Origin: Tubiluchus corallicola
Lineage: Eukaryota; Priapulida; Priapulimorpha; Priapulimorphida; Tubiluchidae
Reading direction: 5' to 3'
DNA: 47,750 bases
Assembly (NCBI GenBank): GCA_030141605.1
Contig: JAQGDQ010001315.1
Location: 1-47,750 of the forward strand
Under the pieces are notes generated by a model that made no database searches, was not told where the DNA came from, and was given only the letters and a program-made list of their open reading frames with translations. Both the position numbers and the translations under genes were made by a program. Position 1 is the first letter of the stretch. Each line of letters opens with the position of its first letter. Shown here piece by piece: positions 12,099-47,750 of this stretch.

Positions 12099-12116
12099 TT
12101 GAAAACACAGGAGCAA

Positions 12117-16907: not shown

Positions 16908-18692
16908 TTATTTGTGAGTCTTCAGGTGACGCTTTAAACCAGTAGATCGGACAAAAGCCGCACTGCACAGATCACACTTAAATGGCTTTGATCCAGTGTG
17001 AACTAGTAAATGTTGCTTCAAATGGCTTAAGCAAGTATATCCAGCATCACACTTCGTACACTTAATGAGTTCACCAGTGTGAAGTCGCAGATGACGTTTC
17101 AAATGATTAGATCTAGAAAAAGCCATATTACACTGAATACATTTAAATGGCTTTTCTCCTGTATGAATTACAAGATGGCGTCTCAGGTCAGCTGCTCGAT
17201 AACAGGCGAATTTACATTGAGTACAGTTAAATGACTTTTCTCCCGTGTGAGTTTTTAAATGATGTTTAAATGAACCTGAAAATGTAAAAGCTGCACCACA
17301 CTGAAAACATTTGAAAGGCTTCTCTCCTGTATGAATTCTAAGGTGCCTCTTCAAATGACCTGAATTAGCAAAAGCAGCAGCGCAGTAACTACACATGAAA
17401 GGTTTTTCTCCTGTGTGAGTTCTTAGATGTACTGCTAATGACCCTGACTGTGTGAAAGTTGCTTCACACCTGTCACATTTATAAGGCTTTTCTCCAGTGT
17501 GAATTCTTACATGTCGTTCCAAACGGCTTAAATAAGTAAAGGATGCACCACACTGGTCACACTTTAGAGATTTTTCTTTATGACTTTTTTGATGTTTCCT
17601 CAAATAGCCTGGCTGACTAAACTCCGCATCACACTGACCGCATTTAAAGGATTTCTCAGCTGTGTGAGTACTTCGGTGACACTTCAAATCATATAAACGA
17701 GTGAAAGCAGAATCACAGTGGTTACATCTGAATAGTTTTTCTCCAGTATGAGCTTTTATGTGTCGCTTCAGATTACATGACCATGTAAAAGCAGCATCAC
17801 ACAAACTGCACTTAAATGGCTTTTCAGCCGTGTGGATTCTTAGGTGTGCCTTCAGGGTAGCCTGTTGAGTAAAAGAGCCATCACATTGGTTACATTTAAA
17901 AGGCTTCTCCCCTGTGTGAGTTCTCAAATGACGCTTCAAATGGCTAGACCTGGCAAAGGCAGTACCACATTCACTGCACTTAAATGGTTTTTCTTGTGTG
18001 TGAGTTGATAAGTGTTGTTTCAAAACACTCGCATATGTAAAAGCAGAATCGCATTGACTGCATTTAAATGGTTTCTCTCCTGTATGAATTCTCAAATGTC
18101 GTTTCAAGTCACTTGACCAACTAAAAGCAGCTTCACAATGGTCACACTTAAAAAGCTTTTCCCCAGTGTGGTAGCTTGTGTGGCGCTTCAAAGAGCCAGG
18201 GTGAGAGAACTGAGCATGGCACCACTCACACTCGAAACATTTTTCAGCTGTACAAGTTTTTAGACTTTGACTTAAATTGTCACCGCCGTTTCCGGCCGAA
18301 GCATCGGGCTGTGTCAAAGGCTTAGTCTTGGCGCCTGTAACTTTATCACAGTCAGTGGAAATATTGCAATCATTTTCGATAGACAGAAAGGCAGCTTGAA
18401 TACCATGATACATTGCTTCGTCATTCCTAGTGTTTTCTATGTTAGCCAATGAAACACTGAGTTCACTTTTCATAGGTATAAAATTAACTTGGGAATCCAG
18501 ATCACATGATTTGCCGCTTTTGAAATCTTCAACATCATCTTCTGAATCACAAGGTTGAGATTTTACTCGTGCAAAATCAGTTTTTGTGTCCTGGACTTTT
18601 GACTTATCATTATCACAATCTTCGTCGTTGTTCGTCACATGATTAGGTTCAGTTTTAACAATTGCAGGATCTGATAGCTTGGCCTGTTCCAT
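16908..18692 (-). CDS. C2H2 zinc-finger protein with 16 fingers
   Basis: Probable nuclear DNA-binding protein of 594 residues. A 154-residue acidic N-terminus is followed by 16 tandem C2H2 fingers from residue 155 to the C-terminus, which ends KTHK right after the last His. Linkers are mostly TGEKPFKC. Fingers 8 and 9 are joined by a shortened linker (KEKSLK), and fingers 14 and 15 by TGELIK. Finger 13 (CTQCKFACY) lacks the usual first Phe. SUMO-consensus motifs VKTE (residue 12) and MKSE (residue 74) sit in the acidic region. The ATG at 18692 is preferred to an earlier open TTG codon. A splice acceptor (TTACAG, exon edge at 18716) lies 24 nt upstream, as in the 10-finger gene, pointing to shared ancestry. 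No KRAB, BTB or SCAN domain. Confidence 0.93.
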   Translation of the reverse strand: MEQAKLSDPAIVKTEPNHVTNNDEDCDNDKSKVQDTKTDFARVKSQPCDSEDDVEDFKSGKSCDLDSQVNFIPMKSELSVSLANIENTRNDEAMYHGIQAAFLSIENDCNISTDCDKVTGAKTKPLTQPDASAGNGGDNLSQSLKTCTAEKCFECEWCHAQFSHPGSLKRHTSYHTGEKLFKCDHCEAAFSWSSDLKRHLRIHTGEKPFKCSQCDSAFTYASVLKQHLSTHTQEKPFKCSECGTAFARSSHLKRHLRTHTGEKPFKCNQCDGSFTQQATLKAHLRIHTAEKPFKCSLCDAAFTWSCNLKRHIKAHTGEKLFRCNHCDSAFTRLYDLKCHRSTHTAEKSFKCGQCDAEFSQPGYLRKHQKSHKEKSLKCDQCGASFTYLSRLERHVRIHTGEKPYKCDRCEATFTQSGSLAVHLRTHTGEKPFMCSYCAAAFANSGHLKRHLRIHTGEKPFKCFQCGAAFTFSGSFKHHLKTHTGEKSFNCTQCKFACYRAADLRRHLVIHTGEKPFKCIQCNMAFSRSNHLKRHLRLHTGELIKCTKCDAGYTCLSHLKQHLLVHTGSKPFKCDLCSAAFVRSTGLKRHLKTHK

Positions 18693-18716
18693 CTTTGCCA
18701 CCAAGATGTGTGAAAT

Positions 18717-19677
18717 CTGTAAAACAAACTAATAATGATCACTGATTCTCTTGCAAAAAGATGTCACGAACTTAAATTTCGTTTTCAGTTGATTCTGTTT
18801 TCCAACAATGGATGTATGTTAAGAATAAAAGCAATTGATGTAATGTGGTCTTACAAGTAGACAGCAGCCTCATGGTACTTTAAGAATAGGGGTGTAGCCG
18901 TTTCTAAAGCTCGGGGGAGCAAGTGCAAAAAAGGCATGAAGACACATGAAGCAATTATTTTTTAATTTTCTATACCACAACAGACAGTATCTGTGTGAGA
19001 AGAAGATATAATAGTAATTAGATGTGGAACAATTTGATAGTTGGTTCAATTAAACAACCTTGACAAATGAGTAGCATAAATGCATGGCCATTTTAGAAAT
19101 ACGGAGGCAGGTTGGTTGAATGAAGTAACAATTCAATTCTTCCAAGACCGAGGCGAATAATAAAGGGTTCACTTTTATCGCACAAATAAGCTAAAGAGTA
19201 AAAAAAATTGTTAAAAGTTGCCATTTTTGAAAAATGTGCTCAAGGGAGGGACTGTTCTCTTTGCTATCCTAACTAAAAAGGTTAACTGGCGTAGAAAAAT
19301 TGTATGATAACAACGATGACATATTTGCTGTGTAACAAATATGTAACCTGCCAAAGTTTCAGTTTTCTTAACAAATAAAATGATGCCAGCCACTGTAGCC
19401 ACATGACTACTTAAGTGTAACTTATGACTAAAAAACTTACTTTTCACATTTTTTAACAATATTCTTAAATAGTGAATTTTAATTAAGTTCTTATTTACCG
19501 TTCTATGGTACTTTTATGTACTAAAATAAATGTGATATAAAGTGGATAAAAATAATAGCTTTTAGTGATTCTGACGTTCATATCGTCTTATTTCATTAAG
19601 TCAGTAATTTCTCCGACGATTCTAGATCAAAGTTTAAATGATTCTTGGGCCAGTCTCTGCTCCTTCCTGGTCAGTAC
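18717..19677. other. region upstream of the 16-finger gene
   Basis: Should hold the leader intron and possibly promoter of the zinc-finger gene. No exon could be assigned. A fragment near 18890-18925 (GGGGTGTAGCCG ... CGGGGGAGC) may be a decayed DNA transposon end. Confidence 0.35.
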
Positions 19678-31729: not shown

Positions 31730-33014
31730 TGATACATACATGTCTCACATTACTGTACACGAAGATTTAGTGAAAACACTATTAAATAACGTCAATACGA
31801 GCAAATCTGTAGGTCCTGATGGAATAAGCAACAAAGTACTTAAGCTTTGTGCAGATTCATTATCAAGCCCATTAACCCGATTGTTTAACTTCTCATTACA
31901 GTCAGGTCATTTTCCTAGCTTGTTGCAAATGTCTGCCCCATACACAAAGGGGGAGATAGACAGCTTGTTTCGAACTACAGACCCGTGGCGCTACTTTCAT
32001 GTATGTCCAAGATTCTAGAACGCGTTGTCTTTAATCAGATGTATAACTACTTTGCTATTGATAATAACTTTTTGACGGAAAAGAACTCGGGGTTCAAATC
32101 AAACGATAGCACCATCAACCAGCTAGTTTCAATCGTTCACAATTTGTATACAAGTTTAGACGACGGTGCTGAAATCTGTAGCGTTTTTCTGGACATCAGT
32201 AAAGCTTTTGATAAGGTGTGGCATGTAGGCTTGATATTCAAATGAAAGCAGTATGGAGTAGGTGGCCAAGTTCTGTCTTGGCTATCATCTTACCTTCGAA
32301 ACCGAACACAAAGAGTAACGAACACAAAGGCAGATCTCAGAATAATTGAAAACTAGGCCAAACGTTGGATGGTTAAATTTAATCCTAATAAGACCGAAGT
32401 CATGCTTTTCTCCCGTAAATCCAATGCTCCTCAATATCCTACTCTGTATTTATCTAATACTCCACTGAAAACTGTAAATGTTCACAAACATTTAGGTATT
32501 GATCTTACATCTGACCTGAACTGGAACTATCACGTCTCAAAAATGGTAGACAAAGCAAATCTAAAGCTAAACAACTTTCGACGTGTGTCAGTTAATAGTT
32601 AATCCCAGAGCTACGCGGGAACGATTATTCATTACGGCTATTCTCCCTGCCATCGAATATGGTAACGTAGTATGGTCAGGATGCAGTGAATACAGTATAC
32701 GTTTGTTAGAAAATATTCAGCTAACTGCTGCTAGAATCTGTTCTGGCGCTATGTTTCGATCTTCCCCTGCAAGTATCTTGTCTGACAGCGGCTTCACTAA
32801 ATTAGTGACACGCTTTCATTATCATCGCCTATGTCTTTTTTACAAAATAATCAATGACTTAGTGCCCCACTATTTAAGTGCAATTCTGCCGCCAAAGGTT
32901 AACGAAGTTACCCCCTATTATATACGCAGTGGTACTAAATACAGAAATTTTAATTGCCGTTCTGTTAGCTGTGAAAAATCGTTTTTCATATCGACCATTA
33001 ACATTCTCGTGTGA
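31730..33014 (+). pseudogene. broken LINE reverse transcriptase
   Basis: RT fragments are in correct order but in different frames: NTSKSVGPDGISNKVLKLCA (about 31795), LSCMSKILERVVFNQMYNYF (about 32000), VFLDISKAFDKVWHVGL (motif A, about 32190), LSWLSSYLRNRTQRV (about 32275). The next piece is MVKFNPNKTEVMLFSRKS (32369), then VNVHKHLGIDLTSDLNWNYH (about 32480), then AILPAIEYGNVVWSG (about 32640). The region between about 32340 and 32369 has lost the PQGS and YADD motifs, so a deletion removed the catalytic core. At least three frameshifts. Confidence 0.85.
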
Positions 33015-35202
33015 TTATTCTGATCATGATTTTATAATAATAGTAGACAAAACAAAACCAACCAAAAACAATACAGGCACAGTCTGGAAAACAGTCAGAG
33101 ATTATTCTACATATAATAAAGATATATTTCAAGATACTTTAACCAAATTGGACTGGAGTAATATTTACACAATGACTGACATTGACATGCAAATAAACAC
33201 ATTAATAAATAATATGGAATACTGCCTGGATATCTATGCACCGTATAAAAAAATTAAAATACATCAGCAGCAATTTAATGCAAAATCTGCCTGCCCTTGG
33301 GCGGATACAGAATTCGCAAAACTAAGACACAATAAAAATGAATTATATAGAACATATTTACATTTAAAAGGTAAAATCAATTACAATAATTACAAAAAGG
33401 CACGAAATAAATTTAATAGCTACAACAGGAAACTCAAAAATAAATATTATATTAATAAATGCAATGATGCAACTACACCTAAACAAAAATGGCATTTAAT
33501 TAATGACGTACTTAACAGATACAGAAACGATCAATTACAAATAAATAGTTTACGAGAAAATGACAGTATAATATCTGATCCAGTTGACATTGCTAACAAA
33601 TTAAATTCCACATTTATCAATCTTGGAAAATTTGACAACTTGCCACACCAACATAATGCAAATATACACAATATATACAAAAACCAATCAGTAATACAAT
33701 CCACTTTCTCATTTACTAGCGTCACAGAATACGACATCTTTAGAATATTAAACAGTTTAAATATAAATAAAGGAAGTGGACCCTCAGACATGCCAATAAA
33801 GATCTTAAAAGACTGTGCCAGCATCATTACTCCTCATCTAACATATATCACAAACCAAGTCTTAATGCGCTCAGAATTTCCAGCAGTGTGTAAACAAGCA
33901 AACATAACTCCAATATACAAGAAAGATGCTAAAGATGATGCTAAAAACTACAGACCAATCTCAGTAGTGCACGTACTAGCCAAAGTATTTGAAAGAGTTA
34001 TCTACAACCAAATAAACCATTACATTGAAAATAATAAGTTACTGTCAAATCATCAATTTGGTTTTAGAAAACTACATTCTACAATAGACGCGATAATTGA
34101 TGCCACTGAAAAGTGGCGTTACAACTTAAATAAAAATAAATATATAACAGCAGCATTTTTAGATCTAAGTAAAGCTTTTGACAGCCTCGATCACAATTTA
34201 CTACTAGACAACTTACGCCAACTAGGATTCGATTATACTTCTCTCAAACTAATTAATAATTACCTACACAATAGAAAACAAAGAGTCAAACTGAACAAAC
34301 ACACTTTTTCAGCATGGGACACACCACAGAGAGGCATCCCACAAGGTACGATATTAGGTCCATTACTCTTTTGTTTATACGTTAATAAAATTCATTTAGT
34401 TTTACATAATTCAGACTTAACACAATATGCCGATGATACAACACTCTATACAGCACACGCAGACTTTCTAACATCAAAAAATAATCTAGAAAAAGACATA
34501 ACAAATATAAATGCAGCATTTAACTATTTTGGTTTAAAAATGAATGATGATAAGACAGAATTTATGGTAATATCACCCAAATCCAATGACATTACTTCTA
34601 ATGCAACACTAAAAGTAGGTGACTGTTCCATAGAACAAGCAAAAACTGTAAAATTTTTAGGCATTACTGTCGACAATAAACTCACTTGGGATGAACAGTT
34701 TCATCAAATACACAACAAGATGGCATTAAGCACGACATTCTTACGCCAAACCAGAGGCCATCTAACCAAGAAAACAAAAATTCTCATCTACAAAAGTCTA
34801 ATATTACCACATTATCTATATGGTTGCACTTTACTTCAAAACGTTAAATATGAAAACTTTAGAAAACTAAATACAATGCAAAACTACGCACTTAGATTAA
34901 TTCATGGCTACTCTAACAAAACTGCTAAACAACATGCTGCTTCTGCAACAAGCTTAAGAACGTCCACAAAAATACCAATATTAGAAGCCTATCGAGATTA
35001 CAAAACACTGATATTTCTTTATAAATATATAAATAAACTGAGCATTCCATTTATAAACAATCCCTTAGCATTTATTCCTGATACCACATTGAACACTAGA
35101 ACATACAATTTAAAGCAAATTACAGTAAACAATAAATTTGGAAATAACTCTATATATCAAAACAGGCCATACATTTATGGAACTTACTACCCAGTGAAAT
35201 AA
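33015..35202 (+). CDS. LINE reverse transcriptase, 5' truncated, nearly intact
   Basis: A long open frame of a CR1/jockey-like ORF2. It begins at the very end of the endonuclease domain (CDYSDHDFIII, with the SDH motif) and continues through a linker (KARNKFNSYNRKLKNKYY) to a complete RT domain. The RT motifs are SGPSDMPIKILKDC, KNYRPISVVHVLAKVFERVI, HQFGFRK, motif A TAAFLDLSKAFDSLDH, motif B GIPQGTILGPLLF, motif C QYADDTTLY and motif E VKFLGITVD. The catalytic Asp pair is intact. The upstream part of the open frame (32878-33014) belongs to the older LINE, so the apparent 774-residue protein is a chimera. It stops at 35202 because of one frameshift near 35155; another frame continues LWNLLPSEIKQIESLHHFKK to about 35280, the real C-terminus. 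Endonuclease is lost, so it is not autonomous. Confidence 0.88.
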
Positions 35203-35283: not shown

Positions 35284-35890
35284 CTGATACTAATTACACC
35301 ACACCATACCACTGCAGCACACCACACCACCCACACCATACGACTCCACCACATCACACCACACTGCACCACACCATACCACTGCACCACACCGCACCAC
35401 CCACACACCACACCACACCATACCACTCCACCAGACTGCACCACACAATACCACTGCACCACCCACACACCACACCACCCACACCATAATACTCCACCAC
35501 ATCACACCGCACAGCACCACACCATAACACCACACTGCACCACACCACCCACCCCATACCACTCCACCACATCACACCACACCATACCACTGCAGCACAC
35601 CGCACCACCCACACACACACCACCCACACCATGCGACTCCACCACATCACACCACACTGCACCACACCATACCACTGCACCACACCGCACCACCCACACA
35701 CCACACCACCCACACCATAATACTCCACCACATCACACCGCACTGCACCACACCATAACACCACACTGCACCACAACACCCACCCACACACCACGCCACC
35801 CACTCCATACCACACTACCCACACCACAACCCACACACCCTATCACCCCACCACACCATCCATAGCACAACACACAAAGCACACCACCAC
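35284..35890. repeat. CCACA-type satellite, block 1
   Basis: About 600 bp of short degenerate units (CCACA, CCATA, CTGCA, CCGCA, CCCACA), with strong strand bias (C and A on plus, almost no G). Larger blocks such as CCATAATACTCCACCACATC recur. It starts directly at the 3' end of the LINE. His/Thr/Pro and Gly/Val/Trp open frames here are artefacts. Confidence 0.95.
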
Positions 35891-35899
35891 CACACCACA

Positions 35900-36840
35900 T
35901 CAAATCCACCACCTCACGTGGTGATCATGATGTTGATGATGATGATGATGATGGTGGTGGCAACGATGACGACACCTATAGCACAAGCACCAACAGCACA
36001 GCATTACAACAAAACCATTCCAAACATTTTTCACAAAGTTGAAACTATGTGCTATAATATAATAAATAGCAAAGGCCCCGCAAAAGATTTTGCGTAAAAA
36101 ACCACGTATAATCAATAATACGCGAACATCCTACCTAGTCCACATTTATAACGCAAAGCCCGTAACATCATGCCTACTGTTTGTTTAACTAACGCAAACC
36201 CGTAGCAGGCAGCTTTTTGCTGAATTAAAGTTATAAGATTACAGCAGAGTACAATGGATGACGTCACAACAATGCCTTTGCGTCAACAGTTTTCTAAGCG
36301 AAAATTGCCGAAAATAGAACATCTAATTAACTCGCCAATACTCCTCTCGGTGGACTTGCCCTAAAATATAACCCACACCATCGTGTAGCCCTGTCCTTCC
36401 TCTTTGTAAAGAGCCCCATATCTCCTTCCTAGAGTGCCACCGGGAGACGCTAGAACGTTTTTTCCAAAGGCTATTTAGTCAAAATTTCGAAAAAAATCGC
36501 GAGTTGGGTCCGGGAAAACGCCCGTTACGGGACGCCGTGGCCCTCTCGCGAATTCTAAATAGGCCTATGACACCCATCGCTGAACCCGTTCCCGTTCTCT
36601 ACATCTCAGCCGTATAACTTTTGCAAAAAAACAGCCGAAAAATGGCCATTTTTGGAGGTTTTTTGCCGCCCGTTCCTCCCGGTGGGCCCGATTCGAAAAA
36701 TAAACCATCAATGAGATGACACTAGATCGAGACCTTTCGTTTGATATATAGATCGCCGCAAATGGTGCCCTCGTCTGGGCTGTAGCCTCGAATCTTATAT
36801 ATATACCAAGAATATTAATATAATAGACTAGCCAAACCCC
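35900..36840. repeat. 0.9-kb tail unit, copy 1
   Basis: Non-coding segment repeated at 37690-38640. Landmarks: CACCTCACGTGGTGATCATG, a GAT run, the block TGCTATAATATAATAAATAG, a perfect CRE palindrome TGACGTCA at 36259-36266, AATTGCCGAAAATAGAACAT, a GC-rich part (CGGGAAAACGCCCG), and CTAGATCGAGACCTTTCG. Several blocks recur in the 2.1-kb units further right. Confidence 0.85.
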
Positions 36841-36865: not shown

Positions 36866-37690
36866 AACACACAACCCACACCACACCACTCCACCTCATC
36901 ACACCACACTGCACCACACCATACCACTCCACCTCATTGCACCACACAATACCACCACACCGCACCACACCATACCACCTACACACCACACCACCCACAC
37001 CATACCACTCCACCACATCACACCACACTGCACCACACCATACCACTGCACCACCCACACACCACACCACACCACCGACACCATAATACTCCACCACATC
37101 ACACCGCACAGCACCACACCATAACACCACACTGCACCACACCACCCACCCACCTACACACCACACCATACCACTCCACCACATCACACCGCACCGCACC
37201 ATACCACTGCAGCACACCGCACCACCCACACACCACACCACACCACCCACACCATACGACTCCACCACATCACACCACACCGCACCACACCGTACCACTG
37301 CACCACACCACACCGCACCACCCACGCACCACACCACACCACCCACACCATAATACTCCGCACTGGACCACACCATAACACCACACTGCACCACACCACA
37401 CCACCCACACCATACCACTCCACCACATCACACCGCACCACACCATACCACTCCACCTCATCGCACTACACTGCACCACACAATGCCACCACACCGCACC
37501 ACCCACACACCACACCACACCACCCACACCACCCACACCATAATACTCCACCACATCACACCGCACTGCACCACAACAGCCACCCACACACCACGCCACC
37601 CACTCCATACCACACTACTCACACCACACCCTATTACCCCACCACACCATCCATAGCACAACACACAAAGCACAGCACCACCACACCACA
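36866..37690. repeat. CCACA-type satellite, block 2
   Basis: Same composition and block structure as 35284-35890, about 820 bp long. Together with its tail it forms a second copy of a unit of about 1.79 kb. Confidence 0.95.
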
Positions 37691-38640
37691 TCAAATCCAC
37701 CACCTCACGTGGTGATCATGTTGATGATGATGATGATGGTGGCAACGATGACGACACCTATAGCACAAGCACCAACAGCACAGCATTACAACAAAACCAT
37801 TCCAAACATTTTTCACAAAGTTGAAACTATGTGCTATAATATAATAAATAGCAAAGGCCCCGCAAAAGATTTTGCGTAAAAAACCACGTATAATCAATAA
37901 CACGCGAACATTCTACCTAGTCCTCATTTTTAATACAAAGCCCGTGCAGCTTTTACTGAATTACAGCAGCGTAGCAGCTTTTTGCTGAATTAAAGCTATA
38001 AGATTATAGACAGAATACAATGGATGACGTCAGAACAATGGTTTTGCGTGAGCAGTTTTCTAAGTGAAAATTGCGAAAAATAGAACCTCTAATTAACTCG
38101 TCGGTGCTCCTCTTGGTGGACCTGCCCTAACATATAGCCCACATCATCGTGTAGCCCTGTCCTTCCTCTTTGTAAAAAGCTATATATCTCCTTCCGAGAA
38201 TCCCACCAGGCGCCGCTAGAACGTTTTTTCCGCAGGCCGTTTGGTCAAAATTTCGAAAAAATCGCGAGTTGGGTCCGGGAAAACGCCCGTTGCGGGGCGC
38301 CCTGGCCCTCTCGCGAATTCTAAATATGCCTACTACACCCACCGCTGAACGGGCTATCTATCCATACCCAGCACCCCCCTCGGCCTGTTCCCGTTCTCTA
38401 CATCTCAGCCGTATAACTTTTGCAAAAAACGGCCGAAAAAGGGCCATTTTTGGAGGTTTTTCGCCTCCCGTTCCTCCCGGTGGGCCCGATTCGAAAAATA
38501 AACCATCAATGAGAAGACACTAGATCGAGACCTTTCGTTTGATATATAGATCGCCGCAAATGGTGCCGTCGTCGAAGCTGTAGCCTCAAATCTTATATAT
38601 ATATAAAGCCCATACCAAGAATATTAATATAAGAGTATAG
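37690..38640. repeat. 0.9-kb tail unit, copy 2
   Basis: Direct duplicate of 35900-36840 with small differences: an added stretch containing CCCAGCACCCCCCTCGGCC near 38365-38395, and loss of a few trinucleotides in the GAT run. The CRE palindrome TGACGTCA is kept at 38025-38032. A minus-strand open frame at 38127-38342 is not recognised and is broken in copy 1, so I do not call it a gene. Confidence 0.85.
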
Positions 38641-38800
38641 ATATAGATATATATTAAGATACCAAGAATATTAGTATAAGAGATATTAATATTGAAAAGT
38701 CAGAAGAATTCTGTTTTAATTTGGTTAATTTAATTTAATGATAATACTAATAATAGTAATATAAATTGCAAATCAGAATTTTCTTTCGGATAAATTTTGT

Positions 38801-38816
38801 GGCCCTGAAAAGGGCC
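38801..38816 (-). terminator. histone-type 3' stem-loop after A1
   Basis: The minus strand reads GGCCCT-TTTC-AGGGCC: a 6-bp stem and 4-nt loop, preceded by AACCAACC and followed by ACAAAA. This fits the metazoan histone consensus (GG-YYY-TTYN-RRR-CC with a CA just after the stem). About 12 nt further is CCGAAAGAAAATTC, resembling the purine-rich histone downstream element bound by U7 snRNA. Confidence 0.7.
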
Positions 38817-38989
38817 GGTTGGTTATATTTAAGGGCCTGTAGCACCGTTCTTCCTCTTTCTGATGAGCCATATATCTCCTTCCGAGAGTCCCACCAGGCG
38901 CCGCTAGAACATTTTTCCGCAGGCTGTTTGGTCAAAATTTCGAAAAAATGTTCGTAAGCAGTGGTGGTTCTCGATGATTCATATGAAGT

Positions 38990-39597
38990 TCAGTTGAAGA
39001 AATTGTACACGCAGTTGGATCCACGTCGTCTGTTTTGAATAGGATGTATATTTTGCTGTTGTGGTAATTGTTGCTGTTGTTGTAATAGTTGTTGCTGTTG
39101 TTGTAATTGTTGTTGTTACTGTTGTTGTATGCGTGAAATGCTTTCAAGTTGTGTTTGCACATGTGCCATGAAATGTCCAAGAATTTGTTGTTGTTGTTGT
39201 TGATGTTCCTGTTCCTGTCCTTGTTCCTGTCCTTGTTCTTGTCCTTGTTCCTGTCCTTGTTCCTGTCCTTGTTCCTGTCCTTGTTCCTTGTCAATTGGAT
39301 TCAACTGCAATTTTTCCATTTTCTGTAACATAGACATATTTTGTTAAAAAAACAAAGATTTTTCAAACAATATGGAAAATTATTCTTCATTTCATTTTAT
39401 GCATAACATAACATGTATGAAACCAAACATGTTATTCAGAAAACTTTAGACTTAAATAGTTTTAGATATTTTGATAATAAATGCTAATGTAAATTAATAT
39501 AAGAGAAATTTATTACCTTCGAAATACTGTTTTTTCCTCCGAAGACAAGACAAAGATAAAGAATGCCAAAAAATAATAATGTCAATGTGAAACGCAT
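38990..39597 (-). pseudogene. gene A1: secreted Gln-rich protein, broken copy
   Basis: Same two-exon layout as the intact copies: exon 1 at 39597-39517 (27 codons, signal peptide), intron 39516-39323, exon 2 from 39322. A single C-to-T change turns a Gln codon into TAA at 39118-39116, inside the glutamine tract. Beyond it the frame continues to the usual ending (GSNCVYNFFN, stop at 38992-38990), but with 33 bp missing from the Arg-rich part. The missing segment lies between two 11-bp repeats (CGTCGTCTGTT), which points to slippage. The Gly-Gln-Glu-Gln repeat is expanded to about seven copies. If translated, it would make only the signal peptide and the first part of the Gln-rich region. Confidence 0.8.
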
Positions 39598-39707
39598 CTT
39601 GTGATTGTTTATTAGACTTGTGAAGCAAAAATTGCCAAAAATAGAACATCTAATTAACATTTACAGTCTGTGCGTTAGGTAAGTGCTGAAAGTTTGGCGG
39701 CTACAGA

Positions 39708-39715
39708 TTTTTATA
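39708..39715 (-). promoter_or_regulatory. TATA box of gene A1
   Basis: TATAAAAA on the minus strand, 118 nt before the A1 start codon, in the context GAGCTATAAAAATC. The expected start site is near 39680. Confidence 0.65.
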
Positions 39716-40032
39716 GCTCGCCAGGGATTAAAGACGAGTGAATTGTTACATTGCGGACGTTAGAGTACACGTCTTAATTGTTCTTGTTACGCGGAAGTTA
39801 GAGTATTTTTTTTTGAAATTTTGACCGAAATTGAACGATATTATTTGATTGAATATTAACCACTAAACGGTTAAAACTGAGTTTTATTTGACATATGCAA
39901 TGTGTATATTATTGTTATGAAGGAAACAAAAATAAAAAATATTGTGTTTGAATTAATGTTTAAAATTAAATTTTAATAATTAGGAGACAGTTGAATTTGC
40001 AAAATCAGAATTTTTGTTCGGATAAATTTTGT

Positions 40033-40048
40033 GGCCCTGAAAAGGACC
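40033..40048 (-). terminator. histone-type 3' stem-loop after B1 (variant)
   Basis: GGTCCTTTTCAGGGCC: one C-to-T change gives a wobble U-G pair, so the hairpin can still form. The downstream element has changed to CCGAACAAAAATTC, losing the GAAAGA core. Confidence 0.6.
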
Positions 40049-40181
40049 GGTTGGTTATTTTATGCAGATCTCTATGCAGAAGTGGTGTATTTCCTGTTGG
40101 TTATTTTATGCAGATCTCTATGCAGAAGTGGTGTATTTCGTCGTGGTGCTCTCACTGACAGCGTACTGGTGTTTGGATTCC

Positions 40182-40370
40182 TCATTGTGAGTTATAGAAA
40201 TTGTAAATTATACAATTGTTCCCTCTGGTTGGGCGCCGTCTTTGTGGAAAGTATGGCCGTTGTCTGTATTGTCTGTTTCTGCGATTTATTTTTTGCTGTT
40301 GTTGTAATTGTTGCCGTTGCTGTTGCTGTATGTGTAAAATTCGTTCAAGTTGTGTTTGCACGTGTGCCAT
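40182..40370 (-). CDS. gene B1: short paralogue of A, status uncertain
   Basis: 62 codons from ATG: MAHVQTQLERILHIQQQQRQ, a short Gln tract, then NRRNRQYRQRPY, FPQRRRPTRG and the ending NNCIIYNFYNSQ. The order matches gene A (MAHxQTQLERI, Gln tract, YRQRPY, Arg run, N-C-x-x-Y-N-F), so A and B are old paralogues. Upstream, the A-like frame continues a few codons (HQQQILGQF) and then hits TAA at 40400-40398, again a Gln codon changed to stop. No signal peptide exon was found, though a TATA-like TATATA lies near 40515-40521. It is either a decayed copy or a truncated protein. The long-kept C-terminal motif argues that it was coding until fairly recently. Confidence 0.45.
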   Translation of the reverse strand: MAHVQTQLERILHIQQQQRQQLQQQQKINRRNRQYRQRPYFPQRRRPTRGNNCIIYNFYNSQ

Positions 40371-40941
40371 GAATTGTCCAAGAATTTGTTGTTGGTGTTA
40401 TTGTTGTTAATTATTATCATTTTTCGCAGTTACTATTTTCTTGTTTTTCGCGCCAAATCAAAGCCGTACTGCATTTTGGCTATATATAACTTGTGTATGA
40501 GTTCTCAGCTTACAGTATATAGAGGCAAATAATGGCCAATACGTTCAAAACGATATTATTTGATTGAATATTAACCACTAAACGGTTAAAACTAAGTTTT
40601 ATTTGACATATGCAATGTGTATATTATTGTTATGAAGGAAAGAAAAATAAAAAATATTGTTTGAATTTTAAATTTTAATAATTAGGGGAGAGTTGTTCAA
40701 TGGCACGACACTAGATCGAGACCTTTCGTTTGATGTATAGATCGCCGCAAATGGTGCCCTCGTCGGGGCTGTAGCCTCGAATCTTATATATAAATATATA
40801 TATTAAGATACCAGCGAAATTAATATAAGAGATATTAATATTGAAAAGTCAGAAGAATTCTGTTTTAATTTTGTTTTTTAAATTTAATTTAAATTAATTT
40901 AATAAATTGCAAATCAGAATTTTCTTTCGGATAAATTTTGT

Positions 40942-40957
40942 GGCCCTGAAAAGGGCC
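40942..40957 (-). terminator. histone-type 3' stem-loop after A2
   Basis: GGCCCTTTTCAGGGCC on the minus strand, 177 nt after the A2 stop, followed by ACAAAATTTAT and the purine-rich CCGAAAGAAAA. Confidence 0.72.
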
Positions 40958-41133
40958 GGTTGGTTATATTTAAGGGCATGTAGCCCCGTTCTTCCTCTTT
41001 CTGATGAGCCATATATCTCCTTCCGAGAGTCCCACCAGGCACCGCTAGAAGGTTTTTTCCGCAGGCTGTTTGGTCAAAATTTCGAAAAAATGTTCGGAAG
41101 CAGAAGTGGTTCCATCATATCATCATGATATCA

Positions 41134-41737
41134 TCAGTTGAAGAAATTGTACACGCAGTTGGATCCGCGTCGTCTGTTGTTGTATGGGCGTTGTCTATAT
41201 CGTCGTCTGTTTTGTCTGGGATGTATATTTTGCTGTTGTGGTAATTGTTGCTGTTGTTGTAATAGTTGTTGCTGTTGTTGTAATTGTTGTTGTTGCTGTT
41301 GTTGTATGCGTGAAATGCGTTCAAGTTGTGTTTGCATATGTGCCATGAATTGTCCAAGAATTTGTTGTTGGTGTTGTTGTTGTTGATGTTGTTCCTGTTC
41401 CTGTCCTTGTTCGTGTCCTTGTTGCTGTTCAATTGGATTCAACTGCAATTTTTCCATTTTCTGTAACATAGACACATTTTTGTTAAAAAAACAAAGATTT
41501 TTCAAACAATATGGAAAAATTATTCTTCATTTCATTTTATGCATAACATAACATGTATGAAACCAAACATGTTATTCAGAAAACTTTAGACTTAAATAGT
41601 TTTAGATATTTTGATAATAAATGCTAATGTAAATTAATATAAGAGAAATTTATTACCTTCGAAATACTGTTTTTTCCTCCGAAGACAAGACAAAGATAAA
41701 GAATGCCAAAAAATAATAATGTCAATGTGAAACGCAT
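41134..41737 (-). CDS. gene A2: small secreted Gln-rich protein, two exons
   Basis: Unknown family; predicted 135-residue precursor. Exon 1 (41737-41657) encodes MRFTLTLLFFGILYLCLVFG followed by GKNSISK, a classic signal peptide. The intron (41656-41461, 196 nt) has a GTAATA donor and a TTACAG acceptor, phase 0. Exon 2 (41460-41134) encodes KMEKLQLNPIEQQQ, Gly-Gln-Glu repeats, a helical segment (QILGQFMAHMQTQLERISRI), a long Gln tract, then an Arg/Tyr-rich basic stretch (QNRRRYRQRPYNNRRR). It ends GSNCVYNFFN with the only mature cysteine. A TATA box lies 118 nt before the ATG. A histone-type stem-loop follows 177 nt after the stop, and no AATAAA is seen before it. The CAA repeats also open an Asn-rich frame, which I take as an artefact. 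Function unknown: an extracellular structural or adhesive role, or a cationic peptide cleaved at the Arg stretches, are only possibilities. Confidence 0.75.
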
Positions 41738-41847
41738 CTTGTGATTGTTTATTAGACTTGTGAAGCAAAAATTGCCAAAAATAGAACATCTAATTAACAT
41801 CTACAGTCTGTGCGTTAGGTAAGTGCTGAAAGTTTGGCGGCTACAGA

Positions 41848-41855
41848 TTTTTATA
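41848..41855 (-). promoter_or_regulatory. TATA box of gene A2
   Basis: TATAAAAA, 118 nt before the ATG, predicting a leader of about 85-90 nt. Confidence 0.65.
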
Positions 41856-42172
41856 GCTCGCCAGGGATTAAAGACGAGTGAATTGTTACATTGCGGACGT
41901 TAGAGTACACGTCTTAATTGTTCTTGTTACGCGGAAGTTAGAGTATTTTTTTTTGAAATTTTGACCGAAATTGAACGATATTATTTGATTGAATATTAAC
42001 CACTAAACGGTTAAAACTGAGTTTTATTTGACATATGCAATGTGTATATTATTGTTATGAAGGAAACAAAAATAAAAAATATTGTGTTTGAATTAATGTT
42101 TAAAATTAAATTTTAATAATTAGGAGACAGTTGAATTTGCAAAATCAGAATTTTTGTTCGGATAAATTTTGT

Positions 42173-42188
42173 GGCCCTGAAAAGGACC
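42173..42188 (-). terminator. histone-type 3' stem-loop after B2 (variant)
   Basis: Same wobble variant and changed downstream element as after B1. Confidence 0.6.
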
Positions 42189-42321
42189 GGTTGGTTATTT
42201 TATGCAGATCTCTATGCAGAAGTGGTGTATTTCCTGTTGGTTATTTTATGCAGATCTCTATGCAGAAGTGGTGTATTTCGTCGTGGTGCTCTCACTGACA
42301 GCGTACTGGTGTTTGGATTCC

Positions 42322-42510
42322 TCATTGTGAGTTATAGAAATTGTAAATTATACAATTGTTCCCTCTGGTTGGGCGCCGTCTTTGTGGAAAGTATGGCCGT
42401 TGTCTGTATTGTCTGTTTCTGCGATTTATTTTTTGCTGTTGTTGTAATTGTTGCCGTTGCTGTTGCTGTATGTGTAAAATTCGTTCAAGTTGTGTTTGCA
42501 CGTGTGCCAT
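42322..42510 (-). CDS. gene B2: short paralogue of A, status uncertain
   Basis: The predicted 62 residues are identical to B1, with the same upstream in-frame TAA. Followed by a stem-loop with a G-U wobble pair at 42173-42188. Confidence 0.45.
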   Translation of the reverse strand: MAHVQTQLERILHIQQQQRQQLQQQQKINRRNRQYRQRPYFPQRRRPTRGNNCIIYNFYNSQ

Positions 42511-43081
42511 GAATTGTCCAAGAATTTGTTGTTGGTGTTATTGTTGTTAATTATTATCATTTTTCGCAGTTACTATTTTCTTGTTTTTCGCACCAAATCA
42601 AAGCCGTACTGCATTTTGGCTATATATAACTTGTGTATGAGTTCTCAGCTTACAGTATATAGAGGCAAATAATGGCCAATACGTTCAAAACGATATTATT
42701 TGATTGAATATTAACCACTAAACGGTTAAAACTAAGTTTTATTTGACATATGCAATGTGTATATTATTGTTATGAAGGAAAGAAAAATAAAAAATATTGT
42801 TTGAATTTTAAATTTTAATAATTAGGGGAGAGTTGTTCAATGGCACGACACTAGATCGAGACCTTTCGTTTGATGTATAGATCGCCGCAAATGGTGCCCT
42901 CGTCGGGGCTGTAGCCTCGAATCTTATATATAAATATATATATTAAGATACCAGCGAAATTAATATAAGAGATATTAATATTGAAAAGTCAGAAGAATTC
43001 TGTTTTAATTTTGTTTTTTAAATTTAATTTAAATTAATTTAATAAATTGCAAATCAGAATTTTCTTTCGGATAAATTTTGT

Positions 43082-43097
43082 GGCCCTGAAAAGGGCC
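43082..43097 (-). terminator. histone-type 3' stem-loop after A3
   Basis: Identical stem, loop, flanks and purine-rich downstream element to those after A2. Confidence 0.72.
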
Positions 43098-43273
43098 GGT
43101 TGGTTATATTTAAGGGCATGTAGCCCCGTTCTTCCTCTTTCTGATGAGCCATATATCTCCTTCCGAGAGTCCCACCAGGCACCGCTAGAAGGTTTTTTCC
43201 GCAGGCTGTTTGGTCAAAATTTCGAAAAAATGTTCGGAAGCAGAAGTGGTTCCATCATATCATCATGATATCA

Positions 43274-43876
43274 TCAGTTGAAGAAATTGTACACGCAGTT
43301 GGATCCGCGTCGTCTGTTGTTGTATGGGCGTTGTCTATATCGTCGTCTGTTTTGTCTGGGATGTATATTTTGCTGTTGTGGTAATTGTTGCTGTTGTTGT
43401 AATAGTTGTTGCTGTTGTTGTAATTGTTGTTGTTGCTGTTGTTGTATGCGTGAAATGCGTTCAAGTTGTGTTTGCATATGTGCCATGAATTGTCCAAGAA
43501 TTTGTTGTTGGTGTTGTTGTTGTTGATGTTGTTCCTGTTCCTGTCCTTGTTCGTGTCCTTGTTGCTGTTCAATTGGATTCAACTGCAATTTTTCCATTTT
43601 CTGTAACATAGACACATTTTTGTTAAAAAAATAAAGATTTTTCAAACAATATGGAAAATTATTCTTCATTTCATTTTATGCATAACATAACATGTATGAA
43701 ACCAAACATGTTATTCAGAAAACTTTAGACTTAAATAGTTTTAGATATTTTGATAATAAATGCTAATGTAAATTAATATAAGAGAAATTTATTACCTTCG
43801 AAATACTGTTTTTTCCTCCGAAGACAAGACAAAGATAAAGAATGCCAAAAAATAATAATGTCAATGTGAAACGCAT
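43274..43876 (-). CDS. gene A3: small secreted Gln-rich protein, two exons
   Basis: Exon 1 is at 43876-43796, the intron is 195 nt, and exon 2 is at 43600-43274. The predicted 135-residue precursor appears identical to A2: signal peptide, Gly-Gln-Glu repeat, Gln tract, Arg/Tyr-rich stretch, terminal GSNCVYNFFN. Differences from A2 lie in the intron (one base shorter). The same TATA spacing (118 nt) and the downstream stem-loop at 43082-43097 are kept. An open frame that starts upstream of exon 2 and reads through the acceptor is intronic and should be ignored. Confidence 0.75.
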
Positions 43877-43986
43877 CTTGTGATTGTTTATTATACTTGT
43901 GAAGCAAAAATTGCCAAAAATAGAACATCTAATTAACATCTACAGTCTGTGCGTTAGGTAAGTGCTGAAAGTTTGGCGGCTACAGA

Positions 43987-43994
43987 TTTTTATA
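43987..43994 (-). promoter_or_regulatory. TATA box of gene A3
   Basis: TATAAAAA at the same 118-nt distance from the ATG as in A2. Confidence 0.65.
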
Positions 43995-44305
43995 GCTCGC
44001 CAGGGATTAAAGACGAGTGAATTGTTACATTGCGGACGTTAGCGTCTTAATTGTTCTTGTTACGCGGAAGTTAGAGTATTTTCTTTTGAAATTTTGACCG
44101 AAATTGAACGATATTATTTGATTGAATATTAACCACTAAACGGTTAAAACTGAGTTTTATTTGACATATGCAATGTGTATATTATTGTTATGAAGGAAAC
44201 AAAAATAAAAAATATTGTGTTTGAATTAATGTTTAAAATTAAATTTTAATAATTAGGAGACAGTTGAATTTGCAAAATCAGAATTTTCTTTCGGATAAAT
44301 TTTGT

Positions 44306-44321
44306 GGCCCTGAAAAGGGCC
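44306..44321 (-). terminator. histone-type 3' stem-loop after B3
   Basis: Canonical GGCCCTTTTCAGGGCC with the GAAAGA-type downstream element, unlike B1 and B2. Confidence 0.65.
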
Positions 44322-44454
44322 GGTTGGTTATTTTATGCAGATCTCTATGCAGAAGTGGTGTATTTCCGGTTGGTTATTTTATGCAGATCTCTATGCAGAA
44401 GTGGTGTATTTCGTCGTGGTGCTCTCACTGACAGCGTACTGGTGTTTGGATTCC

Positions 44455-44643
44455 TCATTGTGAGTTATAGAAATTGTAAATTATACAATTGTTCCCTCTG
44501 GTTGGGCGCCGTCTTTGTGGAAAGTATGGCCGTTGTCTGTATTGTCTGTTTCTGCGATTTATTTTTTGCTGTTGTTGTAATTGTTGCCGTTGCTGTTGCT
44601 GTATGTGTAAAATTCGTTCAAGTTGTGTTTGCACGTGTGCCAT
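44455..44643 (-). CDS. gene B3: short paralogue of A, status uncertain
   Basis: The 62 residues are identical to B1 and B2. The downstream stem-loop at 44306-44321 has the fully paired canonical form and an intact purine-rich element (CGAAAGAAAA). Confidence 0.45.
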   Translation of the reverse strand: MAHVQTQLERILHIQQQQRQQLQQQQKINRRNRQYRQRPYFPQRRRPTRGNNCIIYNFYNSQ

Positions 44644-45208
44644 GAATTGTCCAAGAATTTGTTGTTGGTGTTATTGTTGTTAATTATTATCATTTTTCGC
44701 AGTTACTATTTTCTTGTTTTTCGCACCAAATCAAAGCCGTACTGCATTTTGGCTATATATAACTTGTGTATGAGTTCTCAGCTTACAGTATATAGAGGCA
44801 AATAATGGCCAATACGTTCAAAACGATATTATTTGATTGAATATTAACCACTAAACGGTTAAAGTTTTATTTGACATATGCAATGTGTATATTATTGTTA
44901 TGAAGGAAAGAAAAATAAAAAATATTGTTTGAATTTTAAATTTTAATAATTAGGGAGAGTTGTTCAATGGCACGACACTAGATCGAGACCTTTCGTTTGA
45001 TGTATAGATCGCCGCAAATGGTGCCCTCGTCGGGGCTGTAGCCTCGAATCTTATATATAAATATATATATTAAGATACCAGCGAAATTAATATAAGAGAT
45101 ATTAATATTGAAAAGTCAGAAGAATTCTGTTTTAATTTTGTTTTTTAAATTTAATTTAATTTAATTTAATAAATTGCAAATCAGAATTTTCTTTCGGATA
45201 AATTTTGT

Positions 45209-45224
45209 GGCCCTGAAAAGGGCC
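45209..45224 (-). terminator. histone-type 3' stem-loop after A4
   Basis: Identical stem, loop, flanks and purine-rich downstream element. Confidence 0.72.
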
Positions 45225-45400
45225 GGTTGGTTATATTTAAGGGCATGTAGCCCCGTTCTTCCTCTTTCTGATGAGCCATATATCTCCTTCCGAGAGTCCC
45301 ACCAGGCACCGCTAGAAGGTTTTTTCCGCAGGCTGTTTGGTCAAAATTTCGAAAAAATGTTCGGAAGCAGAAGTGGTTCCATCATATCATCATGATATCA

Positions 45401-46015
45401 TCAGTTGAAGAAATTGTACACGCAGTTGGATCCGCGTCGTCTGTTGTTGTATGGGCGTTGTATATATCGTCGTCTGTTTTGTCTGGGATGTATATTTTGC
45501 TGTTGTGGTAATTGTTGCTGTTGTTGTAATAGTTGTTGCTGTTGTTGTAATTGTTGTTGTTGCTGTTGTTGTATGCGTGAAATGCGTTCAAGTTGTGTTT
45601 GCATATGTGCCATGAATTGTCCAAGAATTTGTTGTTGGTGTTGTTGTTGTTGATGTTGTTCCTGTTCCTGTCCTTGTTCCTGTCCTTGTTCGTGTCCTTG
45701 TTGCTGTTCAATTGGATTCAACTGCAATTTTTCCATTTTCTGTAACATAGACACATTTTTGTTAAAAAAATAAAGATTTTTCAAACAATATGGAAAATTA
45801 TTCTTCATTTCATTTTATGCATAACATAACATGTATGAAACCAAACATGTTATTCAGAAAACTTTAGACTTAAATAGTTTTAGATATTTTGATAATAAAT
45901 GCTAATGTAAATTAATATAAGAGAAATTTATTACCTTCGAAATACTGTTTTTTCCTCCGAAGACAAGACAAAGATAAAGAATGCCAAAAAATAATAATGT
46001 CAATGTGAAACGCAT
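45401..46015 (-). CDS. gene A4: small secreted Gln-rich protein, two exons
   Basis: Exon 1 is at 46015-45935, the intron is 195 nt, and exon 2 is at 45739-45401. The 139-residue precursor has one extra Gly-Gln-Glu-Gln repeat compared with A2 and A3, and one substitution in the basic stretch (RRRYIQRPY instead of RRRYRQRPY). Insertion in whole codons and the otherwise perfect frame fit purifying pressure on the protein, though the copies are too young for this to be strong evidence. Confidence 0.74.
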
Positions 46016-46125
46016 CTTGTGATTGTTTATTATACTTGTGAAGCAAAAATTGCCAAAAATAGAACATCTAATTAACATCTACAGTCTGTGCGTTAGGTAA
46101 GTGCTGAAAGTTTGGCGGCTACAGA

Positions 46126-46133
46126 TTTTTATA
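46126..46133 (-). promoter_or_regulatory. TATA box of gene A4
   Basis: TATAAAAA at the same 118-nt distance from the ATG. Confidence 0.65.
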
Positions 46134-46450
46134 GCTCGCCAGGGATTAAAGACGAGTGAATTGTTACATTGCGGACGTTAGAGTACACGTCTTAATTGTT
46201 CTTGTTACGCGGAAGTTAGAGTATTTTCTTTTGAAATTTTGACCGAAATTGAACGATATTATTTGATTGAATATTAACCACTAAACGGTTAAAACTGAGT
46301 TTTATTTGACATATGCAATGTGTATATTATTGTTATGAAGGAAACAAAAATAAAAAATATTGTGTTTGAATTAATGTTTAAAATTAAATTTTAATAATTA
46401 GGAGACAGTTGAATTTGCAAAATCAGAATTTTCTTTCGGATAAATTTTGT

Positions 46451-46466
46451 GGCCCTGAAAAGGGCC
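46451..46466 (-). terminator. histone-type 3' stem-loop after B4
   Basis: Canonical form with the GAAAGA-type downstream element, although the B4 coding frame is broken. Confidence 0.65.
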
Positions 46467-46563
46467 GGTTGGTTATTTTATGCAGATCTCTATGCAGAAG
46501 TGGTGTATTTCGTCGTGGTGCTCTCACTGACAGCGTACTGGTGTTTGGATTCCTCATTGTGAG

Positions 46564-46752
46564 TTATAGAAATTGTAAATTATACAATTGTTCCCTCTGG
46601 TTGGGCGCCGTCTTTGTGGAAAGTATGGCCGTTGTCTGTATTGTCTGTTTCTGCGATTTATATTTTGCTGTTGTTGTAATTGTTGCCGTTGCTGTTGCTG
46701 TATGTGTAAATTCGTTCAAGTTGTGTTTGCACGTGTGCCATGAATTGTCCAA
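46564..46752 (-). pseudogene. gene B4: frameshifted copy
   Basis: Relative to B3, one A is lost near 46709 (GTAAATTCG instead of GTAAAATTCG) and bases are lost upstream near 46770. The B frame is therefore broken just after MAHVQTQLE. The C-terminal codons are still present in another frame. The downstream stem-loop is intact. Confidence 0.7.
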
Positions 46753-47305
46753 GAATTTGTTGTTGGTGTGTTGTTAATTATTATCATTTTTCGCAGTTAC
46801 TATTTTCTTGTTTTTCACCAAATCAAAGCCGTACTGCATTTTGGCTATATATAACTTTTGTATGAGTTCTCAGCTTACAGTATATAGAGGCAAATAATGG
46901 CCAATACGTTCAAAACGATATTATTTGATTGAATATTAACCACTAAACGGTTAAAACTAAGTTTTATTTGACATATGCAATGTGTATATTATTGTTATGA
47001 AGGAAAGAAAAATAAAAAATATTGTTTGAATTTTAAATTTTAATAATTAGGGGAGAGTTGTTCAATGGCACGACACTAGATCGAGACCTTTCGTCTGATG
47101 TATAGATCGCTGCAAATGGTTCCCTCGTCGGAGCTGTAGCCTCGAATCTTATATATAAATAATATATATTAAGATACCAGCGAAATTAATATAAAGATAT
47201 TAATATTGAAAAGTCAGAAGAATTCTGTTTTAATTTTGTTTTTTAAATTTAATTTAAATTAATTTAATAATTGCAAATCAGAATTTTCTTTCGGATAAAT
47301 TTTGT

Positions 47306-47321
47306 GGCCCTGAAAAGGGCC
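47306..47321 (-). terminator. histone-type 3' stem-loop after A5
   Basis: Identical stem, loop, flanks and purine-rich downstream element. Confidence 0.72.
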
Positions 47322-47497
47322 GGTTGGTTATATTTAAGGGCATGTAGCCCCGTTCTTCCTCTTTCTGATGAGCCATATATCTCCTTCCGAGAGTCCCACC
47401 AGGCACCGCTAGAAGGTTTTTTCCGCAGGCTGTTTGGTCAAAATTTCGAAAAAATGTTCGGAAGCAGAAGTGGTTCCATCATATCATCATGATATCA

Positions 47498-47750
47498 TCA
47501 GTTGAAGAAATTGTACACGCAGTTGGATCCGCGTCGTCTGTTGTTGTATGGGCGTTGTATATATCGTCGTCTGTTTTGTCTGGGATGTATATTTTGCTGT
47601 TGTGGTAATTGTTGCTGTTGTTGTAATAGTTGTTGCTGTTGTTGTAATTGTTGTTGTTGCTGTTGTTGTATGCGTGAAATGCGTTCAAGTTGTGTTTGCA
47701 TATGTGCCATGAATTGTCCAAGAATTTGTTGTTGGTGTTGTTGTTGTTGA
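47498..47750 (-). CDS. gene A5: 3' part of exon 2, cut by the window edge
   Basis: Same frame as A4, with the RRRYIQRPY variant and the terminal GSNCVYNFFN. Exon 1, the intron and the promoter would lie to the right of the window. Confidence 0.72.
   Translation of the reverse strand, partial: QQQQHQQQILGQFMAHMQTQLERISRIQQQQQQQLQQQQQLLQQQQQLPQQQNIHPRQNRRRYIQRPYNNRRRGSNCVYNFFN

Follow-up and report, generated by a model that had tools for sequence, protein, structure and literature searches.

A small family of predicted secreted proteins in the priapulid Tubiluchus corallicola appears to have been built within a histone gene pair and to have retained its control signals

The messenger RNAs of replication-dependent histone genes in animals end in a short hairpin that is bound by SLBP, followed by a purine-rich element that is bound by the U7 small nuclear ribonucleoprotein (snRNP), and the transcript is cut a few bases past the stem to yield an mRNA that lacks a poly(A) tail. 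To our knowledge, such stem-loop ends are considered to be exclusive to histones. Chimeric genes that have captured the regulatory ends of another gene form a more general class. Moreover, one study describes an H2B variant that retains the stem-loop and indicates that stem-loop and poly(A) signals can coexist (PMC8857922). Here we describe a tandem array of Gln-rich, non-histone genes with histone-type 3′ ends, located at 38.8-47.75 kb of a 47,750-nucleotide (nt) contig of Tubiluchus corallicola (JAQGDQ010001315.1; this entire stretch is hereafter the window). It is quite likely, judging from the sequence comparisons below, that the intact genes of this array are chimeras that were born inside a duplicated divergent H2A/H2B variant pair and use histone-style 3′ ends; although they do not encode histones, they probably make tail-less, histone-style mRNAs.

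The array consists of tandem units of approximately 2.14 kb, each comprising one A copy (approximately 1.23 kb) and one B copy (approximately 0.9 kb), all on the minus strand and numbered along the window. A first-pass annotation of the window had pointed to nine minus-strand hairpins of histone layout behind the A and B copies, and all nine were recovered, after A1 (38801..38816), B1 (40033..40048), A2 (40942..40957), B2 (42173..42188), A3 (43082..43097), B3 (44306..44321), A4 (45209..45224), B4 (46451..46466) and A5 (47306..47321). Each comprises 16 nt, with a 6-bp stem containing GG..CC, a 4-nt pyrimidine-rich loop and consensus flanks; the sequence is GGCCCTTTTCAGGGCC in seven of the nine and GGTCCTTTTCAGGGCC, a GGTCC variant in which one G-U pair is kept, in B1 and B2, and ACAAA follows directly on the 3′ side in every case. 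In the window search with the Rfam family RF00032 (Histone3; cut-off 34 bits), seven hairpins scored 39.7 bits (E 2.7e-8) and two fell just below the cut-off (32.4 bits, E 1.4e-5). Folding recovered the hairpin with the 6-bp stem and 4-nt loop in all four 3′ ends considered (B2, A3, B3 and the histone donor identified below; z −2.7 to −3.5). The purine-rich element that had likewise been reported for seven of the nine copies is indeed present as GAAAGAAAATTC, 13 nt past the stem (for A4, spacer at 45208-45196 and element at 45195-45184), and takes the form GAACAAAAATTC in B1 and B2. The stop codon and the hairpin are 176 nt apart in A2-A4, and the earlier remark that no AATAAA lies in this interval in A2 was borne out and extends to ATTAAA, as well as to A3 and A4.

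Because all nine hairpins belong to one tandem array, they are not independent observations; independent support is provided by the Rfam score, by the 68-nt hairpin block that is 96% identical between A and B, and by other loci in the genome. Apart from that block, A and B align mainly over 125 nt of coding sequence (90%) and 160 nt of upstream or intergenic sequence (87%), much of the rest being unalignable. A 19-mer representing the hairpin core occurs three times in a 257-Gb prokaryote collection, with no Rfam match at the gathering score in the 8-kb loci around these occurrences, and is absent from the viral contigs searched.

Genome-wide, the 343.5-Mb assembly (in which contigs are labelled by C-numbers, the window being C222, and loci by L-numbers) contains at least 66 Histone3 matches, 54 of them over the cut-off, a lower bound given that 75 of 58413 first-pass candidates were scored. 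Judged by their surroundings, 27 of the 66 are part of the Gln-rich family and 37 of histone genes (including one H2B pseudogene), with two left unassigned. Beyond the nine family hairpins in the window, the other 18 are on C1813, C927, C75, C567, C795, C1209, C1409, C1427, C1432, C1883, C1891 and C44. The histone genes are mostly arranged as divergent H2A/H2B and H3/H4 pairs, and the single H1 gene found stands apart. In 35 of the 36 histone genes with a readable hairpin, the hairpin is GGCCCTTTTCAGGGCC, identical to that of the family, the remaining one having a C in the loop, which rules out that the histone genes of this species use a clearly different hairpin. The purine element is also closely similar to that of the family: of 28 histone genes tabulated, 26 have its AATTC 18-22 nt past the stem, and the remaining two were misread by the pattern used in the search. 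A profile search of the genome for the SLBP domain (PF15247) gave no match, although the positive control was also silent and introns were not handled.

Several histone-type ends in this genome fall outside both groups or are damaged. L044 (C341) and L046 (C1409:125300-127300) carry histone hairpins but no gene recognisable as a histone or a family member; the 3′ end of L046 is 91% identical over 93 nt to that of an H2B variant, and both loci are possibly further displaced histone ends. L048 (C1834:245400-247000) is the H2B pseudogene, with a broken frame, a hairpin damaged by a C to T change of the last base and an altered purine element, which indicates that an unused hairpin can decay in this genome.

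The 3′ ends of the family derive from a histone gene. The apparent donor of both ends of the family genes is a divergent variant pair on C752 (L030, C752:28000-37999), in which an H2B variant (71%) faces an H2A variant (83%), these identities being relative to a reference sequence. In the C75 copy, a few bases separate the stop codon of the Gln-rich frame from a segment comprising the last 28 codons and the stop codon of the C752 H2B variant, identical at 87 of 87 nt, and the hairpin and purine element of the donor come next. Homology to the donor spans approximately from 130 nt before to 65 nt after the hairpin start. Shorter H2B relics with differing deletions are present in C44, C795, C1891, C1432a, C927a and C927b2 and in the window copies B1-B4, namely at 46490..46539 in B4 (C-terminal coding relic with the stop codon), 44440-44391 in B3, 42307-42258 in B2 and 40167-40118 in B1, all on the minus strand and with a 46-nt duplication in B1-B3. 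Furthermore, the C752 H2B variant is the best match of the 3′ block among the 36 histone genes for all 26 family copies compared, being tied with H1 for C1891.

In the A copies, only the short ACCACTTCTGC is left of the H2B relic, and the stretch that follows it is also found at 38.2 kb, outside the array; we infer that the relic was replaced by an inserted or recombined dispersed repeat. A segmental duplication in the window (36245-36810 and 38011-38608) lies beside CACAC arrays (35296-35899 and 36868-37690), and part of it recurs in the 3′ untranslated region (UTR) of the A copies. On C1813, a family 3′ fragment with two hairpins, the second of them damaged, is flanked by a direct repeat of local sequence and looks like an insertion (L022:4400-5000).

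The 5′ ends of dispersed copies are likewise of histone origin. A comparison of the C752 H2A/H2B intergenic region with the family upstream regions, on both strands, yielded a match of 240 nt at 87% identity (E 1e-78) in the upstream region of C927a and matches of 81-86% identity over 116-240 nt in seven further dispersed copies (C567, 240 nt at 82%; C927b1, 190 nt; C1427 and C1409b, approximately 157 nt; C1432c and C1209, 130 nt; C44, 116 nt); in the A copies of the window, the match extends over 24-30 nt only. Moreover, a relic of the H2A variant coding sequence precedes the ATG in C927a (49 nt, 84%, 50.0 bits) and C44 (35 nt, 89%, 42.8 bits), the best score among 100 codon-shuffled control sequences being 32.8 bits. 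An element common to the C752 variant promoter, GTGTACTCTAACGTCCGC, occurs on the minus strand upstream of A4 (46171..46188), A2 (41910-41893) and A1 (39770-39753), with no exact copy for A3; it likewise occurs in L030 and family loci, but a scan of six canonical histone loci did not recover it. A TATA-box-like GAGCTATAAAAATC, a putative promoter element, is found on the same strand upstream of A4 (46124..46137) and of the other A copies (43998-43985, 41859-41846 and 39719-39706). A link to canonical histone promoters was considered and rejected: none of the top 40 9-mers shared among 13 promoters (12 canonical, one from L030) occurs in the family upstream regions, so that the link of the 5′ end is to the variant pair. 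Another divergent variant pair, on C1834 (L049; H2A 83%, H2B 80%), lacks GTTAGAGTACAC, which is also absent from C177 and C2279.

The resulting order is promoter, H2A relic, Gln-rich gene, H2B relic and H2B 3′ end. Given that coding relics of both H2A and H2B are found in the UTRs of the family, which points to derivation from the C752 pair, the direction of the change is fixed as from histone to chimera. These adjoining relics also refute the notion of chance or convergent hairpins unrelated to histone processing, against which the Rfam scores and the identity with the host histone genes argue as well; we assign practically no probability to it.

We propose that a foreign frame coding for a secreted protein took over a duplicated H2A/H2B variant locus and came under histone control at both ends, with spliced stem-loop mRNAs tied to the S phase, to endocycles or to the germline, a composite scenario that we regard as reasonably likely. 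A coding unit with one intron of approximately 195 nt would have been set between the promoter of the pair, read toward H2A, and a downstream segment made up of the final H2B codons and the 3′ end of that gene, the leftover H2A and H2B coding pieces becoming part of the 5′ and 3′ UTR, respectively. RNA polymerase II would transcribe the gene under control shared, now or at birth, with the variant histones, and the transcript would be spliced; SLBP would bind the hairpin, the U7 snRNP would pair with the purine element (the 5′ end of U7 RNA being expected to pair with GAAAGAAAATTCTGATTTTGC), and the mRNA would be cleaved after ACAAA and remain without a poly(A) tail. The outcome would be S-phase- or germline-linked expression of a secreted product. 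Tandem and dispersed duplication would then have multiplied the chimera, giving rise to functional-looking copies, such as A2-A4, and to decayed ones, such as A1 and the B copies. The relation of the promoter to the variant pair suggests joint expression with the H2A/H2B variants, at least at birth. Since variant histones are often expressed in the germline, our guess is a germline or early-embryo product, the alternative being an endocycling secretory tissue; secretion, cleavage and the timing of expression are all predicted from sequence features.

With respect to the protein family itself, 27 copies were examined, of which 15 permit a model with putative signal peptide and intron and 11 are intact; the latter represent six distinct types and encode 124-178 amino acids (aa). 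The protein consists of a hydrophobic N terminus, kept in the six distinct copies and predicted to direct secretion, a Gln-rich body and an Arg-rich C terminus with a conserved C..YNF end. All 15 modelled copies have a single predicted intron of 186-198 nt. The annotation's statement that these genes are not histones was upheld: no intact histone is encoded in the window (best E 0.056), and the A protein has no match above the cut-off in Pfam. Searches of 5.8 billion proteins found no relative at E 0.01 either for the A protein (3795 candidates scored) or for an alignment of five family members (7968 candidates scored), the Q-rich sequence limiting the reach of both. Gln-rich coding fragments without an adjoining hairpin are present at L034:6664-6819 and L035:7521-7589.

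In the window, A2, A3 and A4 are the sole copies with an intact model comprising putative signal peptide, intron and open reading frame: A4 (45401..46015; 139 aa) has exon 1 at 46015-45935, which encodes the hydrophobic N terminus, an intron at 45934-45740 and exon 2 at 45739-45401; A3 (43274..43876; 135 aa) has exon 1 at 43876-43796, a 195-nt intron and exon 2 at 43600-43274; and A2 (41134..41737; 135 aa) has exon 1 at 41737-41657, a 196-nt intron and exon 2 at 41460-41134, all on the minus strand, as are the copies that follow. A1 (39116..39597), at the array edge, has the same structure with a premature stop after 95 aa and is a pseudogene, and A5 (47498..47750) is the 3′ part of exon 2, truncated by the contig end, such that the array is probably longer than seen. 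B1 (40182..40370) is a relic frame of 62 aa with homology to the C-terminal half of A, without the N-terminal exon and signal peptide; B2 (42510-42322) and B3 (44643-44455) contain the same relic frame, and B4 is a frameshifted relic. Hence, the description of the array as a tandem family of secreted genes fits the A copies but not the decayed B copies or the broken A1, and the ascription to A of an intron, a Gln-rich body and, putatively, a signal peptide stands for A2, A3 and A4, not for the prematurely stopped A1 or the truncated A5.

Such decay raises the possibility that all units are dead, i.e., that the array is satellite-like, accompanied by scattered relics of histone DNA, and encodes no functional protein. 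The premature stops in A1, C567, C927b1 and C927c, the loss of exon 1 from the B copies, the lack of a complete model in 12 of the 27 copies and the position of several copies at contig ends are all compatible with this interpretation. We nevertheless consider it improbable because the 11 intact copies, which fall into six distinct types, have conserved splice sites, because the motifs FMAH.QTQL, RQ.PY and YNF are conserved, and because the ratio of nonsynonymous to synonymous substitution rates (dN/dS) is below 1 in most pairs (over all codons, 0.19-0.60 for every one of the 15 pairs but the closest, which has 0.72). Reading the coding dS values as high divergence was rejected: introns differ by only 0-16%, and the dS values are therefore taken to be inflated by the Q repeats. 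As for the contig ends, the same 178-aa family gene lies near the ends of C1209, C1409 and C1883 (L032, L033 and L037), with an inverted pair on C1409, which suggests that longer arrays probably broke the assembly.

Conservation of the 3′ signals also supports chimeric genes that use their histone-style 3′ ends. With near-identical copies counted singly, 10 of the 11 intact copies, and also the copy truncated by the contig end, have an exact 47-nt core from the hairpin to the purine element, whereas the core is altered in 7 of the 16 copies without an intact model, a group that includes those whose first exon escaped the strict pattern; changes in the hairpin itself are seen in four of these 16 and in none of the 11 intact copies. 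Among the six distinct intact types, none of 41 core sites is variable, whereas the intron has 34 variable columns and 133 constant ones (Fisher p 2.7e-4, the core count setting aside an insertion in C1432c; p 0.03 for the hairpin alone against the intron columns), although recency or gene conversion could contribute to this invariance. Neither AATAAA nor ATTAAA occurs between the stop codon and the hairpin in any of the 11 intact copies.

Several observations weigh against this reading, and some of them favor an alternative in which the H2B 3′ end is a passenger inherited by descent, the mRNAs are polyadenylated downstream, and the hairpin is kept by recency or gene conversion. In all but one of the 11 intact copies, one or the other hexamer lies within 250 nt past the hairpin (less than 250 nt being readable in three), making read-through polyadenylation possible. 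The H2B relic of C75 is unchanged, yet promoters differ from the donor by 13-19% and introns by up to 16% between copies, so that the 3′ block may be of recent origin or may have been evened out by gene conversion, either of which would weaken the case for selection. In the intact family copies the spacer, which varies among histone genes, is invariant, a pattern that fits recency as well as constraint, and the exact core is kept in 9 of the 16 copies without an intact model. In addition, C1432c, although intact, carries an insertion of 6 nt at the purine element; the H2A relic was undetected in 9 of the 11 upstream regions tested and present in two; once the Q-rich columns are left aside, dN/dS is 0.23-0.81 across 14 pairs and reaches 1.41 for the closest one, in which changes are few; and an intron is unusual beside a histone-type 3′ end.

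However, the four hairpin alterations are confined to copies without an intact model; deletions and rearrangements reach to within approximately 10-20 nt of the stem, yet the stem is spared in the intact copies; the introns of the same copies vary; and the hairpin of the H2B pseudogene in the same genome is damaged. Downstream hexamers likewise follow 15 of 25 true histone genes and hence do not discriminate. We accordingly regard passenger ends as unlikely and favor chimeric genes that employ the histone-type signals they inherited. The central proposal of the first-pass annotation, histone-type 3′ signals on intron-containing genes for apparently secreted proteins, is supported at the sequence level, and on firmer ground than the annotation could offer: it gains from the identical host hairpin and closely similar purine element, the H2B-derived 3′ ends and the unchanged hairpin in all 11 intact copies. 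It does not extend to the B copies or A1, and the annotation as a whole is partly supported.

Elsewhere in the window, two long frames encoding C2H2 zinc fingers (10620-12116 and 16908-18728, minus strand; Pfam zf-H2C2_2 and zf-C2H2) and a 774-aa reverse transcriptase frame (32878-35202, plus strand; RVT_1, E 4.2e-36) were detected, the closest relative found for the latter being 39% identical over 97% of the part searched. A tandem array of a 40-nt unit is located at 3868-4614 (18.7 copies, 97% matches).

If correct, this interpretation would mean that, contrary to the rule, stem-loop ends are not confined to histone mRNAs; our literature searches, which covered titles and abstract openings, with most subscription journals outside their scope, returned no non-histone gene with a histone-type 3′ end. 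A non-histone family with the complete signal, many copies and a visible donor would show that the histone 3′ end is portable. It would also be a natural experiment on S-phase control by the hairpin alone, on SLBP/U7 processing of spliced transcripts, and on the translation and stabilisation of histone-type mRNAs without a histone product. According to the study cited above, poly(A)-selected RNA-seq under-represents histone-type transcripts (PMC8857922), and similar cases may therefore be overlooked elsewhere.

Compared with the replication-dependent histone genes of animals (SLBP/U7; RF00032), the family has the same hairpin and a similar purine element, flanks and spacing, and the upstream region of its dispersed copies comes in part from a histone variant pair; unlike those genes, it encodes a product that is not a histone, contains an intron and a hydrophobic N terminus, and exists in tandem and dispersed copies. 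Like other chimeras that captured regulatory ends, it combines a new gene with a borrowed promoter and terminator, relic coding pieces serving as UTR, whereas in this case a histone pair was the donor and the 3′ end taken over is of the non-polyadenylated type. Finally, the H2B variant described in the aforementioned study keeps its stem-loop, as does the C752 variant, but the cases reported there are histones, whereas in Tubiluchus corallicola the same ends serve a non-histone frame (PMC8857922).

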